DNA of 64,000 nucleotides from Streptomyces sp. NBC_00102 (GTDB taxonomy: Bacteria > Actinomycetota > Actinomycetes > Streptomycetales > Streptomycetaceae): contig NZ_JAPEMC010000006.1 of NCBI RefSeq assembly GCF_026343115.1, positions 89,648-153,647 of the forward strand. Reading direction: 5' to 3'. The translations under genes and the position numbers were made by a program. Shown here piece after piece: positions 39,197-43,486 of this stretch (the first letter of the stretch is position 1; every line of letters starts with the position of its first letter). Under the pieces are notes generated by a model. It searched no databases. It saw only the letters and a list, made by a program, of their open reading frames with translations, and was not told the DNA's origin.

Positions 39197-40909
39197 ATGT
39201 CCACCACCGGTGTTGCGTCATCCCTGGCGCCCACCGACTCCCCGGCGCCCTACCGGTGGCGCTGGGTCGCGCTCTTCGTGATCCTCGCCGCCGAGGTGAT
39301 GGATCTCCTGGACGCCGTAGTCACCAACATCGCCGGTCCCTCCATGCGGGCCGACCTGGGCGGCGGTGCGTCCACGCTGCAATGGCTCGCCGCCGCGTAC
39401 ACCCTCTCGATGGCCGTCGGACTGGTCACCGGCGGTCGGCTCGGAGACATACACGGCCGCCGCCGGATGTTCCTGGTGGGTGCCGCCGGCTTCACCGCGG
39501 GTTCGCTGCTGTGTGCGATAGCCGGGTCGCCCGGCACGCTGATCACGGCTCGCGTCGTCCAGGGACTGTTCGGCGCCGTGATGCTGCCTCAGGGCCTCGG
39601 CATGATCAAGGAGATGTTCCCGCCGAAGGAGTCGCAGAAGGCTTTCGGCCTGTTCGGCCCGGTCATGGGGCTGTCCGCCGTGTGCGGGCCGATCCTCGCG
39701 GGCTGGCTCGTGGACGCCGACTACTTCGGCACCGGATGGCGGATGATCTTCCTGATCAACCTGCCGCTCGGCGCCGCGGCCTTCCTCGGCGCCCTGCGCT
39801 ACCTGCCCCGGACCCAGGCCGGCGACAAGCCCCGCCTGGACATCCCCGGCATGCTCCTGGTCTCGCTCGCCGCGCTGCTCGTCATCTTCCCGCTGGTGCA
39901 GGGCCGCGAGTACGACTGGCCCGCCTGGACGTTCGCGATGCTGGCCGCCTCGGTCGCCGTCTTCGCCGTCTTCGCCGTGTACGAGTCGCGCCGCAGCAGG
40001 GCTGGGCTGGACCCCCTGGTCGTACCGAGCCTCTTCCGCAAGCGCGGATTCAGCGGAGGCATGACCCTCGGGCTGGTCTTCTTCTCGGCCATGCAGGGCT
40101 TCATGCTCGTCTTCAACCTCTACACCCAGATCGGGCTGGGCTACTCACCGCTCAAGGCGGGCCTGGTGATGGTGCCATGGTCCGGCGGCATGATCGTCGG
40201 CTTCGGCCTGGCCCAGGCCGTGGCACGGTTCGGCCGGGCCGTGCTTCAGGCGGGCGCGCTGGTCATGGGAGTCGGCGTGTTCGGTGTCTGGCTGACGCTC
40301 GACACGGCGGGCAGCGGCGTCGGCCCGTGGCAGCTCCTGCCCGCCCTGCTCGTGACCGGCACCGGCATGGGTCTGCTGATGGCCCCGTTCTTCGACATCG
40401 TGCTCTCCAGCGTCGAGCAGCACGAGACGGGCTCGGCATCCGGCACGATGACCGCCGTCCAGCAGCTCGGCGGCGCCTTCGGAGTGGCCATCCTCGGCAC
40501 CGCGTTCTTCGGCCTGCTGGGCGGCTCGATCGCGAGCTCCGTCGACCACCAGGCGGACGGTCTGCGTGACCGGCTCGGCGCCGTCCACGTCCCGCCCGCG
40601 GCCCAGGACCGTGTCCTCGCGGATCTGCGCCGCTGCGCCGCTGACCGCGCCGTCGCCAAGGACCCCGCCGCGACCCCCTCCTCCTGCACCCTCCTGGAGA
40701 AGGACGCCCGCTCCGCCGCCACTTCACCCGAAGCCGCCGCCAAGGTGCCCGCCGCACTCCAGGACACCGCGTCCTCCGCCTTCCGCGGCGGCTTCGGCTC
40801 GGCGATGAAGACCGTGCTGTGGATCGTGGACGGCATGCTCGTCCTCACCTTCCTCCTCGCCTTCCTGCTCCCCCGCCACGCTCGTCCCGAGGAAACCCCC
40901 GCCCACTGA
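39197..40909 (+). CDS. MFS exporter, DHA2 (EmrB/QacA) family
   Basis: 570 residues, 14 predicted helices. Motif A GRLGDIHGRRRMFLVG after helix 2 and motif C-like GPVMGLSAVCGPILAGWLV are DHA2 hallmarks; DAVVTNIAGPSM in helix 1 is the usual D1 motif. The penultimate extracellular stretch (RDRLGAVHVPPAAQDRVLADLRRCAADRAVAKDP) with two cysteines is a loop. It exports a drug-like compound by proton antiport; the substrate is unknown. ATG with GAGGAG. Followed by a hairpin terminator. Confidence 0.92.
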   Translation: MSTTGVASSLAPTDSPAPYRWRWVALFVILAAEVMDLLDAVVTNIAGPSMRADLGGGASTLQWLAAAYTLSMAVGLVTGGRLGDIHGRRRMFLVGAAGFTAGSLLCAIAGSPGTLITARVVQGLFGAVMLPQGLGMIKEMFPPKESQKAFGLFGPVMGLSAVCGPILAGWLVDADYFGTGWRMIFLINLPLGAAAFLGALRYLPRTQAGDKPRLDIPGMLLVSLAALLVIFPLVQGREYDWPAWTFAMLAASVAVFAVFAVYESRRSRAGLDPLVVPSLFRKRGFSGGMTLGLVFFSAMQGFMLVFNLYTQIGLGYSPLKAGLVMVPWSGGMIVGFGLAQAVARFGRAVLQAGALVMGVGVFGVWLTLDTAGSGVGPWQLLPALLVTGTGMGLLMAPFFDIVLSSVEQHETGSASGTMTAVQQLGGAFGVAILGTAFFGLLGGSIASSVDHQADGLRDRLGAVHVPPAAQDRVLADLRRCAADRAVAKDPAATPSSCTLLEKDARSAATSPEAAAKVPAALQDTASSAFRGGFGSAMKTVLWIVDGMLVLTFLLAFLLPRHARPEETPAH

Positions 40910-40920
40910 GACGGCGCCCG

Positions 40921-40952
40921 GCCGATCCGCCGCTCCACCGCGGCGGATCGGC
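40921..40952 (+). terminator. MFS gene terminator
   Basis: 13-bp perfect stem (arm GCCGATCCGCCGC), 6-nt loop, extended outward by GGCGCC/GGCGCC pairing; starts 11 bp after the stop. Confidence 0.75.
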
Positions 40953-41057
40953 GAGGCGCCGCGCTCGGGACTGCGTCACGTATGTCCGACGGTGAGGAAG
41001 GCGCCCCTGGCAGGTCGTCCTGGCTTGCCGACCCGAAAGATCCGTCAGAATAGCCGG

Positions 41058-41087
41058 TTGTCGGGTGATCACCTCGACGTCTAACGT
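41058..41087 (+). promoter_or_regulatory. Possible promoter of the tRNA-like RNA
   Basis: TTGTCG, 18-bp spacer, TAACGT. It would start transcription a few bases before the cloverleaf, as is common for tRNA genes. Moderate match only. Confidence 0.4.
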
Positions 41088-41096
41088 CTCCGTCAT

Positions 41097-41168
41097 CGGC
41101 GTGTAGCTCAGCAGGAGAGCACCGGGCTCCGGACCCGGGGGGCGCAGGGGCGGAACCTGCCACGTCGG
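41097..41168 (+). ncRNA. tRNA-Arg(CCG)-like cloverleaf with abnormal T-loop
   Basis: A complete cloverleaf folds: 7-bp acceptor (CGGCGTG/CACGTCG, one G-U), TA at 8-9, D-stem GCTC/GAGC with loop AGCAGGA, 5-bp anticodon stem CCGGG/CCCGG with loop CTCCGGA (anticodon CCG, arginine), 5-nt variable region, 5-bp T-stem GCAGG/CCTGC. The T-loop is GGCGGAA instead of TTCRANY, so the usual D-loop/T-loop contact and the conserved T54-Psi55 are lost, and no CCA is encoded. It resembles Streptomyces tRNA-Arg(CCG) in the anticodon arm but is unlikely to be a normal elongator. It ends four bases before an ATG at the head of the next gene. Could be a degenerate tRNA, a tRNA mimic or a processing signal. Confidence 0.7.
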
Positions 41169-41254
41169 CTTATGGATGACAACGCTGAGCAGCAGCCCCC
41201 GATACGGCCCTCTCCTATCCGGAGGGCCAACTGGTCAAGGCCTTCATCACCGCG

Positions 41255-43486
41255 TTGACCCACGAGGATGCCGACACCCGGCGCCGCGCCGAAGTGCGCG
41301 GGCAGCGCTGGCGGGAGGTTCTGGCGGCCCTGGCCGCAGGTCGGCTGACGGTCGGTTCGCGTACGCCCGTGGCCGGGTTTCCGCCCTGGGTGACCCTTGA
41401 GGTGATGCGCGGAGGCTTCGCCACCGGGACCGCGAGCGCGAGCGGGCCGCTCCAGAGCCACGAGACCGAAGCCGCGCGGAGGTTCGGCGTACCCGCTGAA
41501 CGGCGCGCGCTCTTCGCCTACTGCCTCACCGAGCCCGGACTCGCCTGGTTGTGGTCCCGGTTGGACAGCGGCGGCTACGAGATCGGTGTGCCCGAGGAGG
41601 CCGCGCTGCTCACCCTGGCCTGGCTGGTGCGCCGAGGTGAGACCGGCGCTGCGCTCGACCTCGTGGCGGAGCTGAAGCCGTTCGCGGACCGGTTGCGGTT
41701 CCTGCCGCGCCCCGGGGACGAGGCCGTGCCCGACGCAACCGGGGCCGACGCCACCGCGGCCGTCCACCGGCACACCGTCTCCGAGGCCATCGACACTCTG
41801 ATACGGCGGCGGCCCAACGCAGCCGTCGAGGCCCAGCGCGAGGCGCTCGCCGTGTGGCAGCCGTTCGGCGACGAGCTGCTCGTCCACTGGTTGCGGACGG
41901 CGCGGGACGGCTGCGTCCTCGAACTCGCCCCGGACGCCGACTGGCTGGCCGAGGGCGAGGTTCTGCTCGGCCGCTACCGGCGGCTGGCGGCGGAACACAC
42001 CTTGTGCACCAAGCACCGCAGCCCCAAGGAGAATCTGGGCATTCTCCGTGCGGCGCTGGAGGAGGCCGTCGCCGGGCGGCCGCTGGAACCGCGCCGGCTC
42101 GGCCTGCTGCGGCACGCGGTGCGGTCGATGGTGCGGCGGCGTGGTCTGCCCGGCTCGGCCACGCACTCGGCGTTGCGCCGCCGCCAGGCCGAGCAGGCGG
42201 CGCTGCCTTCCCATCACGCCTCGGCCCAGCTGATGCTGGGCCGGCTCGCGGTGTATCCGCTGGAGGCGGGAATCACCGACGTGGCCCCGCTCCTGGGTCC
42301 GGTTACCGAGGAGGAGAGCCGGGAGACCGGTCTGCCCGCCGGAGCCGTCGTCCCGGACACGGTCGCCCGGGTGGTCGGGTCCGCGCTGAGCGCTCCGCTC
42401 GGCACGCTCGTGGAGCGGGGCGTCGTCCCGTCCGCCGAGGTCATGGCCCAACTGGTGCCGCAGTTGGTCGCCGCCACCACCGCACACGCGTACGTCGACG
42501 AGACGCTGCGAGCCGTGATGGCCGCGAACTACCGGGCGTTCCGCGACCGCCGCTCCGTGCTCCTGCTCGATCTGGAGCGCCAGGTGCGCGTCGAGGAACT
42601 GCCCTGGGTGCGGGCGGTGGCGGGGCAGCGATCGGCGGCACCGGGCGCGGCGGACGGTGAAGGTGCGCTCTCCGTGCTGCGGCATCTGGGCGAGCTGGCC
42701 GTGCAGGCCTTCCCGGGGACGCTCCTGCCCAACCCGCTGGTCCGCGAGTTCGGAGTCCTCGACCGCGGTTGCGACCTCGGGGCCCCGTTCGTGGAGGAGC
42801 TGGCCGCCGACATCTTCATGGGCACGTTCAGCCGGAAGTTCCTCAAGGCCGCGCGGGACGCGGGCGAGCTGCTCGGCGGCACCCTGTACGAGCGTTACTA
42901 CGGCATCGACTACGCCGCGATCCGCAATCTGGCGATCGTGGAGACGAGCGAGGCCCTGACCCGTCCGGACGGCGCACGCACCTCCCCCGGCTTCGCGCGG
43001 TTGTGCGCCGAGCGGGCCAAGGTGACCTCGCACTCCAGGTCGGTCGCGGCGAACGGGACGGTGATCGAACAGGCGCAGATCCTCACCACGCACAACCTGG
43101 CCACCCTGGTGAACCGGGTGGGCATCGCCCCCCGGCCCGGGTGGGCCGATCTGGCGCGCCGCTGCTTCGTGACCGTGTGCCGGCTGACCGCCCGTGTGCA
43201 CCGCGACCCGCGGCCGTTGGGCACGATCAAGGACGCCGCGTACGCGTGGCGCCAGATGGTGTTCCACCTGTCCCTCTGCCCGCCCACGGAGCAGCGGCGG
43301 GTCGTCGCGGGCCTGTCGCAGGAGGTGGCCCGTCACCCGGCCCATGTCGCGACCCGGCTGGCCCCCGCCCTGGCGGGGCTGGTCCTCGTCGCCGGGGGCG
43401 GCGCCTTCGACGAGGACGGGACGGCGGACACCGGACGTGCCCGGCGCTTCACGGGGTGGAGCACCGGCGAGCACTGGATGCGGTGA
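41255..43486 (+). CDS. Large protein of unknown family behind a tRNA-like RNA
   Basis: At least 743 residues that I do not recognise. Mostly alpha-helical, soluble, no signal peptide. Notable blocks: EPGLAWLWSRLDSGGYEIGVPEEAALLTLAWLVRRGE, HRSPKENLGILRAALEEAV, FSRKFLKAARDAGELLGGTLYERYYGIDYAAIRNLA, HSRSVAANGTVIEQAQILTTHNLATLVNRVGI, RCFVTVCRLTARVHRDPRPLGTIKDAAYAWRQMVFHLSLC. Start is unclear: the frame is open back to a stop at 41186 and reads sensibly (SYPEGQLVKAFITALTHEDAD) but has no ATG or GTG there; a TTG at the given start is the only standard start in frame. An ATG at 41172 (MDDNAEQQPP) is in another frame, needing a -1 shift. The tight link to the tRNA-like RNA suggests an RNA-related role, inference only. 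Confidence 0.8.
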   Translation: MTHEDADTRRRAEVRGQRWREVLAALAAGRLTVGSRTPVAGFPPWVTLEVMRGGFATGTASASGPLQSHETEAARRFGVPAERRALFAYCLTEPGLAWLWSRLDSGGYEIGVPEEAALLTLAWLVRRGETGAALDLVAELKPFADRLRFLPRPGDEAVPDATGADATAAVHRHTVSEAIDTLIRRRPNAAVEAQREALAVWQPFGDELLVHWLRTARDGCVLELAPDADWLAEGEVLLGRYRRLAAEHTLCTKHRSPKENLGILRAALEEAVAGRPLEPRRLGLLRHAVRSMVRRRGLPGSATHSALRRRQAEQAALPSHHASAQLMLGRLAVYPLEAGITDVAPLLGPVTEEESRETGLPAGAVVPDTVARVVGSALSAPLGTLVERGVVPSAEVMAQLVPQLVAATTAHAYVDETLRAVMAANYRAFRDRRSVLLLDLERQVRVEELPWVRAVAGQRSAAPGAADGEGALSVLRHLGELAVQAFPGTLLPNPLVREFGVLDRGCDLGAPFVEELAADIFMGTFSRKFLKAARDAGELLGGTLYERYYGIDYAAIRNLAIVETSEALTRPDGARTSPGFARLCAERAKVTSHSRSVAANGTVIEQAQILTTHNLATLVNRVGIAPRPGWADLARRCFVTVCRLTARVHRDPRPLGTIKDAAYAWRQMVFHLSLCPPTEQRRVVAGLSQEVARHPAHVATRLAPALAGLVLVAGGGAFDEDGTADTGRARRFTGWSTGEHWMR

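Follow-up and report, generated by a model that had tools for sequence, protein, structure and literature searches.

Does the tRNA-like cloverleaf that stands directly before a large, unrecognised reading frame in a Streptomyces genome lie there as a stray tRNA, or does it belong with the protein encoded behind it? We examined the locus within a 64,000-nucleotide stretch of DNA (the window), whose positions are used in Table 1. Judged by comparison of loci across genomes, the cloverleaf is a member of a conserved RNA family found immediately 5' of the genes for a single uncharacterised protein family.

The locus in the window

A four-arm cloverleaf with all four stems intact occupies positions 41097-41168 of the forward strand. 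The Rfam tRNA model RF00005, whose cut-off is 29 bits, scores it at 48.2 bits, and our family model R1 at 93.4 bits, the RNA itself being part of the R1 training set. It was not called by ARAGORN in a scan of the window, it encodes no CCA, and it is the second weakest of the 67 tRNA-model matches in its genome (G000, 8.6 Mb). The first-pass annotation had described a full cloverleaf with anticodon CCG before a large open reading frame, and both the coordinates and the Rfam score agree with that description.

It had also placed an ATG close behind the cloverleaf, where one is indeed found two bases 3' of the RNA end, and had let a protein of 740 residues start from it. The frames do not allow the latter: the long frame opens with a TTG farther downstream, and the ATG belongs to a different frame that stops after 28 codons. 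Eighteen aligned homologues open with the residues M[N/D]D[N/D]A[E/D]QQ, encoded from the ATG that adjoins the cloverleaf, and close homologues have about 766 residues against the 743 of the window frame. Compared with its relative P0001 (98%), the window gene lacks one base past about codon 9. The loss of frame (41172-41258) may reflect a recent pseudogene, that is a real frameshift, or an assembly error, and this copy may accordingly be broken or misassembled.

Table 1. Positions of the features of the locus in the window.
Feature	Position	Strand	Evidence
Promoter-like pair TTGTCG (41058-41063) and TAACGT (41082-41087), with a 9-nt spacing to the RNA	41058..41087	+	Comparison of 80 loci
tRNA-like RNA, 73 nt	41097..41169	+	Rfam RF00005, 48.2 bits; family model R1; covariation
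Acceptor stem of tRNA-like RNA	41097-41103/41161-41167	+	
D-arm of tRNA-like RNA	41106-41120	+	
D-loop AGCAGGA, with AG at the place of tRNA G18-G19	41110..41116	+	AG in 96/96 copies (Streptomyces set)
Anticodon arm	41122-41138	+	
Anticodon loop CTCCGGA, triplet CCG at 41129-41131	41127..41133	+	
Variable loop	41139-41143	+	
T-arm	41144-41160	+	
T-loop GGCGGAA (G54 G55 C56 G57 G58)	41149..41155	+	GGC[GA]G in 95/96 copies (Streptomyces set)
G73 C74 of tRNA-like RNA	41168-41169	+	
Start codon (ATG, 41172) and first codons of homologues; window copy out of frame beyond about codon 9	41172..41200	+	
Open frame of 743 aa with TTG start (41255), uncharacterised helical protein	41255..43486	+	

Co-occurrence of the RNA and the protein gene

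Loci were gathered by the protein alone: GTDB genomes gave 198 relatives, and the best 80 were used. The tRNA-like RNA adjoins the gene in every one of these 80, a recurrence that excludes a chance origin of the cloverleaf. There are 96 copies, scoring 85-101 bits: 67 loci have one, eleven have two, one has three and one has four, so that two to four copies stand in tandem in 13 of the 80. A home-made cloverleaf scan found the structure in 142 of 153 loci; three of its 11 misses (L005, L136, L144) are positive by the model, and the other eight are second pieces, fragments and contig-end stretches.

The converse search, with R1 over 295 Streptomyces genomes, gave 47 matches of at least 77 bits in 42 genomes, and the next matches reach 67 bits at most. 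Two that lie just under this gap (66-67 bits) are tRNA-Trp(CCA). RNA and protein are both present in 40 genomes, the RNA only in two, the protein only in four, and neither in 249. Among the 40, two genomes (G190 and G128) have the gene in pieces beside a well-kept RNA. One of the RNA-only genomes, G229, holds a well-kept RNA of 90.3 bits about 330 nt from a contig end, with the gene missing, and the other, G289, has a diverged copy of 77 bits with no adjoining gene; the notion that orphan RNAs decay was dropped because of the former. The four protein-only genomes have fragments of 42 to 187 residues each. The RNA has no other constant companion: no family among the neighbouring frames, taken within up to 3 kb, is seen in more than 12 of the 80 loci, which rules out a conserved operon partner.

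The first-pass annotation had suggested that a pair recurring across genomes would be an RNA-protein system rather than a dead tRNA, and the counts above bear out the recurrence. The comparison it had sketched, running from homologues of the protein to the upstream cloverleaf, the covariation of its stems and its odd T-loop, was carried out with a positive outcome.

Some individual loci deserve mention. In L126 (2595-2906), which has the four tandem RNAs, the first codons of the gene are repeated between the copies, which suggests recent unequal exchange. In G278 the locus is present twice on a single contig, once toward each end (C1:587309 and C1:10951224) and with the two copies inverted relative to each other, probably within terminal inverted repeats. 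In L249 (3811-3883) and L254 (3924-3998) a locus-tag number is skipped at the RNA; tags are skipped elsewhere too, and the table at hand is one without RNA genes. The RNAs of these two loci likely carry a tRNA label in the original record.

Conserved stems and an altered elbow

Over 65 diverse RNAs, 99.9% of the cells in stem columns are paired, with changes on both sides in 8 of 21 pairs. None of 500 shuffles came as high on four of five measures, and the fifth, the occurrence of further pair types, was reached by 67. A set of 46 RNAs taken across families has 99.4% of 943 cells paired, with two-sided changes in 11 of 21 pairs (111 cells); its covariation score is 0.364, against 0.126 for shuffles and at most 0.071 for slid controls. 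Here the pair-type count was reached by 3 of 500 shuffles and the other measures by none. The shuffle test is inflated by relatedness, which the slid controls preserve. The covariation of the stems that the earlier reading had proposed to look for is present. In predicted minimum free energy folds of the RNA together with 45 nt of mRNA, the acceptor stem survives in only 8 of 40 cases.

Core positions of tRNA are retained as well. U8, A14, A21, C32 and U33 are kept in at least 94 of the 96 copies, and G15 and C48 mostly so. The elbow is where the Streptomyces RNAs depart from tRNA: the T-loop noted by the first-pass annotation is present as described, and the D-loop likewise is without G18-G19 (Table 1). 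Across the 46 rows, C56 and G19 are constant, and 36 rows have A18, G55, G54 and G58. Nine have G18, U55, U54 and A58, the ordinary elbow (the type of f93, f115 and G783), and a single intermediate, L144, has A18, G55, U54 and A58. In all 46 rows, bases 18 and 55 are either G-U or A-G, and bases 54 and 58 either U-A or G-G. The nine ordinary-elbow rows stem from three lineages, and the switch may amount to one or few events.

Two tertiary contacts that change together, and that can be separated in L144, make the pattern expected of a maintained elbow. To go by these sequence patterns, the elbow is probably kept, A18-G55 and G54-G58 pairs standing in for the contacts of ordinary tRNA; we infer that the bases would actually pair in this manner. 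The earlier statement that the RNA should form no normal elbow needs correction in this respect. Similarly, the supposed conservation of the odd T-loop holds for the Streptomyces set and is not universal, the f93, f115 and G783 type being ordinary.

The anticodon loop

Among 123 distinct RNA sequences (one of them a false hit) we counted 22 triplets at the anticodon position, led by CGG (33), CTG (17) and GCA (9). The label tRNA-Arg(CCG), given on first inspection, is correct as to the triplet of the window RNA; the special Arg identity falls, since other members show 21 other triplets. Six-base anticodon loops occur in L281, L282, L284 and one L126 copy.

In the tree built from 79 genes, C32 and U33 never change, and positions 34-37 do so 14-20 times. 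Thirty fourfold sites on the same tree change 15.4 times on average (sd 5.4), and the idea of a fast diversifying anticodon was rejected on this comparison. The composition of the loop is not free, as A34 is found in 1 of 96 copies, like in real tRNA sets. Complements of the loop are no more frequent than with loops swapped among loci, either within 100 nt upstream or 40-150 nt downstream, and reading of the anticodon in cis was rejected on these grounds. Fixed body positions together with drifting positions 34-37 argue that the body of the RNA is recognised and the triplet is not; from this pattern of substitution, the anticodon seems not to be read.

Promoter, transcript and start of translation

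A promoter-like pair precedes the RNA (Table 1). Counted from the 5' end of the first RNA copy in the 80 loci, TTG stands at -40 to -38 with 71 occurrences and TANNNT at -16 to -14 with 73. A strict scan for the E. coli-type consensus gave no promoter in the window; the pair is assigned by comparison of loci. From the position of the pair, transcription would start about 2 nt 5' of the RNA, which argues that RNA and mRNA probably share one transcript, as the first-pass annotation had thought. A TGATCA palindrome lies between the -35 and -10 elements (41066-41071), and also in several Streptomyces loci (L068, L076, L078); it is a possible operator.

The ATG follows C74 by 1 or 2 nt in 79 of the 80 loci (the remaining one, L093, has a broken frame), and this gap of the Streptomyces type has no room for a Shine-Dalgarno sequence. 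Leaders shorter than 9 nt, counted as leaderless, make up 21% of primary starts in Streptomyces coelicolor according to the figures given in PMC4895711. The Curtobacterium, f93, f115 and G783 loci have leaders of 10-28 nt, several with a Shine-Dalgarno-like stretch by eye, and leaderless reading is therefore not general.

In 69 of 79 loci the homologues have GCT, a rare Ala codon, at codon 5; of the 8325 Ala codons counted in genes, 167 are GCT. This excess places the first codons under nucleotide-level constraint. In the window this codon (41184-41186) lies inside a GCTGA stretch complementary to the D-arm. Both D-arm and GCTGA are nearly invariant, and pairing between them is a candidate. 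A start-codon hairpin competing with the acceptor stem was discarded: it shows no covariation, and the CGAC of the first codons does not track the acceptor strand.

The protein and its distribution

The protein was held to be unrecognised on first inspection, and it has remained so. Sequence searches found nothing above the Pfam cut-off, nothing in NCBIfam, PADLOC (three members) or PHROGs, and no significant relative in the PDB (best E 0.098); no RNA-binding domain was recognisable by Pfam in the proteins scanned. Members have about 770 residues (about 83 kDa), with a pI of 9.0-9.8 in the three examined. A structure model predicts an all-helical protein with pLDDT 91, a single-sequence model reaching only pLDDT 42. 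Fold comparison, viral library included, gave no match, which does not by itself prove a new fold. Homologues number 955 by single-sequence phmmer and 1741 by profile, the best 120 of each being listed; among the phmmer matches listed the closest are from Streptomyces, and all are unnamed or 'hypothetical' except one with an unsupported name. In public records P0078 is called a 'serine/threonine-protein kinase' and P0231 a 'transcriptional regulator', names for which no support was found.

The protein is present in 64 of 392 sampled Streptomyces genomes. In a 394-genome sample of the class, 28 genomes have it, seven of them Streptomyces. Six plasmid records (Embleya, Streptomyces, Curtobacterium) carry it, with adjoining RNAs of 87-99 bits, and in Curtobacterium the RNA is kept at 37-38% protein identity. 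Relatives of the protein were not found in the viral_contigs or phages sets, and the idea of carriage by phages was dropped. Four viral contigs in which the RNA pattern matched proved to hold ordinary phage tRNAs of 57-59 bits. In the viral contigs L257-L259 a phage tRNA (anticodon CAT) stands directly 5' of a small phage gene; it has an ordinary tRNA score and is not a family member.

In the further families f91, f93 and f115, R1 finds an upstream tRNA-like RNA in 20 of 21 loci, the sole exception (L287) being a 60-residue match, and the Rfam tRNA cut-off is reached in 17 of the 20. One genome of another class, G783, the only one with the protein among 66 sampled there, has two tandem RNAs before the gene. 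The RNAs with ordinary elbow, seven of the 20 further loci plus G783, score 54-67 bits with R1 (44 for the second G783 copy). This is how ordinary tRNA scores, and the evidence that these RNAs belong to the family is accordingly their position, not their score. L167-L169, L174, L175 and L177 encode a shorter protein (about 490-620 aa) and have a changed anticodon stem. Of the seven members observed in this short-protein subfamily, six have anticodon GCA and L005 differs.

Possible roles of the RNA

A body that is held, a distance to the gene and a mode of start that vary, tandem copies, and no other gene that travels along together suggest an RNA that acts in trans as a partner. We regard it as an evenly balanced proposition, argued from sequence, that this is a cis-encoded, trans-acting tRNA-like RNA, made on the same transcript as the protein that would bind it. 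One promoter would give a transcript with one to four tRNA-like RNAs at its 5' end and, as its body, the message for an all-helical protein, basic and some 770 residues long. The RNA would fold as an L and be cut out of the transcript by tRNA-processing enzymes, and the encoded protein would bind it, either as its partner or as its ligand. Cutting after G73 would, in loci of the Streptomyces type, yield an mRNA whose leader is 1-3 nt long and which would be read as leaderless. As a guess, binding of the RNA might keep the protein inactive or set its level, with tandem copies supplying an excess of RNA. A known arrangement of this general kind is the Y RNA YrlA, which has a tRNA-like module and is encoded beside its helical binding protein Ro60. 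Unlike YrlA, the present RNA is a bare cloverleaf at the start of an mRNA; no TROVE domain was found by Pfam in the proteins scanned, and PF05731 is absent from the window's genome.

The main rival is a cis-acting leader like that of yjdF, and a type III-like antidote is a special case. The former would be a tRNA-like leader that acts only in cis and controls translation or stability of its own mRNA, perhaps as a ligand or protein switch; we consider it somewhat unlikely. By comparison, the RNA is the 5' end of the mRNA and in the Streptomyces set abuts the start codon; a leader would explain the RNA-protein pairing as well as the partner model does, and the constraint on codon 5 is in its favour. 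The account of yjdF in PMC9142559 offers a precedent, a tRNA-like aptamer in an mRNA leader, and further reports that tRNAs in mRNA leaders boost translation 2 to 6.3 fold in vitro. As described there, the two RNAs are alike in being tRNA homologues at an mRNA 5' end just before the gene served, with an elbow made by D- and T-type loops. Unlike yjdF, the window family has a full cloverleaf with anticodon loop, tandem copies and another protein, and at Rfam cut-offs the RNAs of the window and 20 further loci pass RF00005 only, without matching the yjdF model. In the yjdF off state the T-loop pairs with the Shine-Dalgarno sequence, for which the Streptomyces-type gap leaves no space, and the alternative pairings examined near the start codon show no covariation. 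Against a leader stand the independence of the first-codon CGAC from the acceptor strand, the tandem copies, and the variation by lineage of start-codon distance and Shine-Dalgarno-like stretch around an RNA body that is kept.

Next comes a type III-like toxin-antitoxin system, with a toxic protein and tRNA-like units cut from the transcript as its antidote, which we think quite improbable. It would account for the patchy spread and the plasmid records, for RNA units, sometimes in tandem, upstream of the protein in an apparent single transcript, and for the two genomes with gene pieces beside a well-kept RNA. ToxIN and CptIN, in the description of PMC5086642, share RNA units, sometimes repeated, upstream in one transcript; in our family the repeats are confined to the minority of loci counted above, and the shared promoter is a matter of comparison. 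Unlike the type III systems described there, the RNA is a cloverleaf and not a pseudoknot, and the large helical protein has no recognised endoribonuclease fold and no toxin domain that was found. Nor is there a terminator: a scan of 40900-41300 of the window detected no Rho-independent one between RNA and gene, and the Streptomyces type has no room for it. PADLOC, silent on the three members, was also run on 80 of the 155 nearest-neighbour frames (without a control set) and gave 4 hits spread over 3 families; the suggestion of a defence island was rejected.

That the RNA is a special tRNA, aminoacylated for use by the protein or by the ribosome, appears very improbable. Like an ordinary tRNA, the window RNA passes the RF00005 cut-off and has the stem lengths, U33 and core positions U8, A14 and, in most copies, G15 and C48; the rarity of A34, and the ordinary elbow in the f93, f115 and G783 type, fit too. 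Elongator tRNAs have T54-U55-C56 with G18-G19, a combination absent from the Streptomyces set and present in that type, and keep their anticodon identity and a seven-base loop. Here the triplet drifts with no fixed identity, some loops have six bases, the Streptomyces elbow is rebuilt without T54-U55, and the RNA is coupled to one protein. A dead tRNA or integration-site relic that precedes the gene by chance, for which the ARAGORN miss and the frameshift of the window gene might speak, is refuted by the covariation, the recurrent pairing and the conserved promoter-like pair, and can be set aside almost entirely.

Significance

Literature searches, covering top-ranked titles with subscription papers and preprints outside their scope, returned no description of this cloverleaf-protein pair. 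The gene is carried by many actinobacteria, and nearly all intact copies examined are preceded by one or more such cloverleaves, often with a rebuilt elbow and a seemingly unread anticodon, which points to a partnership undescribed so far. Returning to the trans-acting partner, we tentatively advance the broader proposal, in which our confidence is somewhat lower, that the pair constitutes a new class of cis-encoded RNP in Actinomycetota. In it a former tRNA with rebuilt elbow, freed from decoding, would have become devoted, as partner, to one protein with a new fold, and tRNA-processing enzymes would release from the transcript both the RNA and a leaderless mRNA. Such processing, if true, would tie the supply of the RNA to that of the protein. 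The apparent natural, covarying swap of the tRNA elbow contacts should be of use to work on RNA structure. If the proposal is right, an RNA family has been overlooked as searches file its members as tRNA, and the family would illustrate how a tRNA gene can turn into a fixed protein partner.
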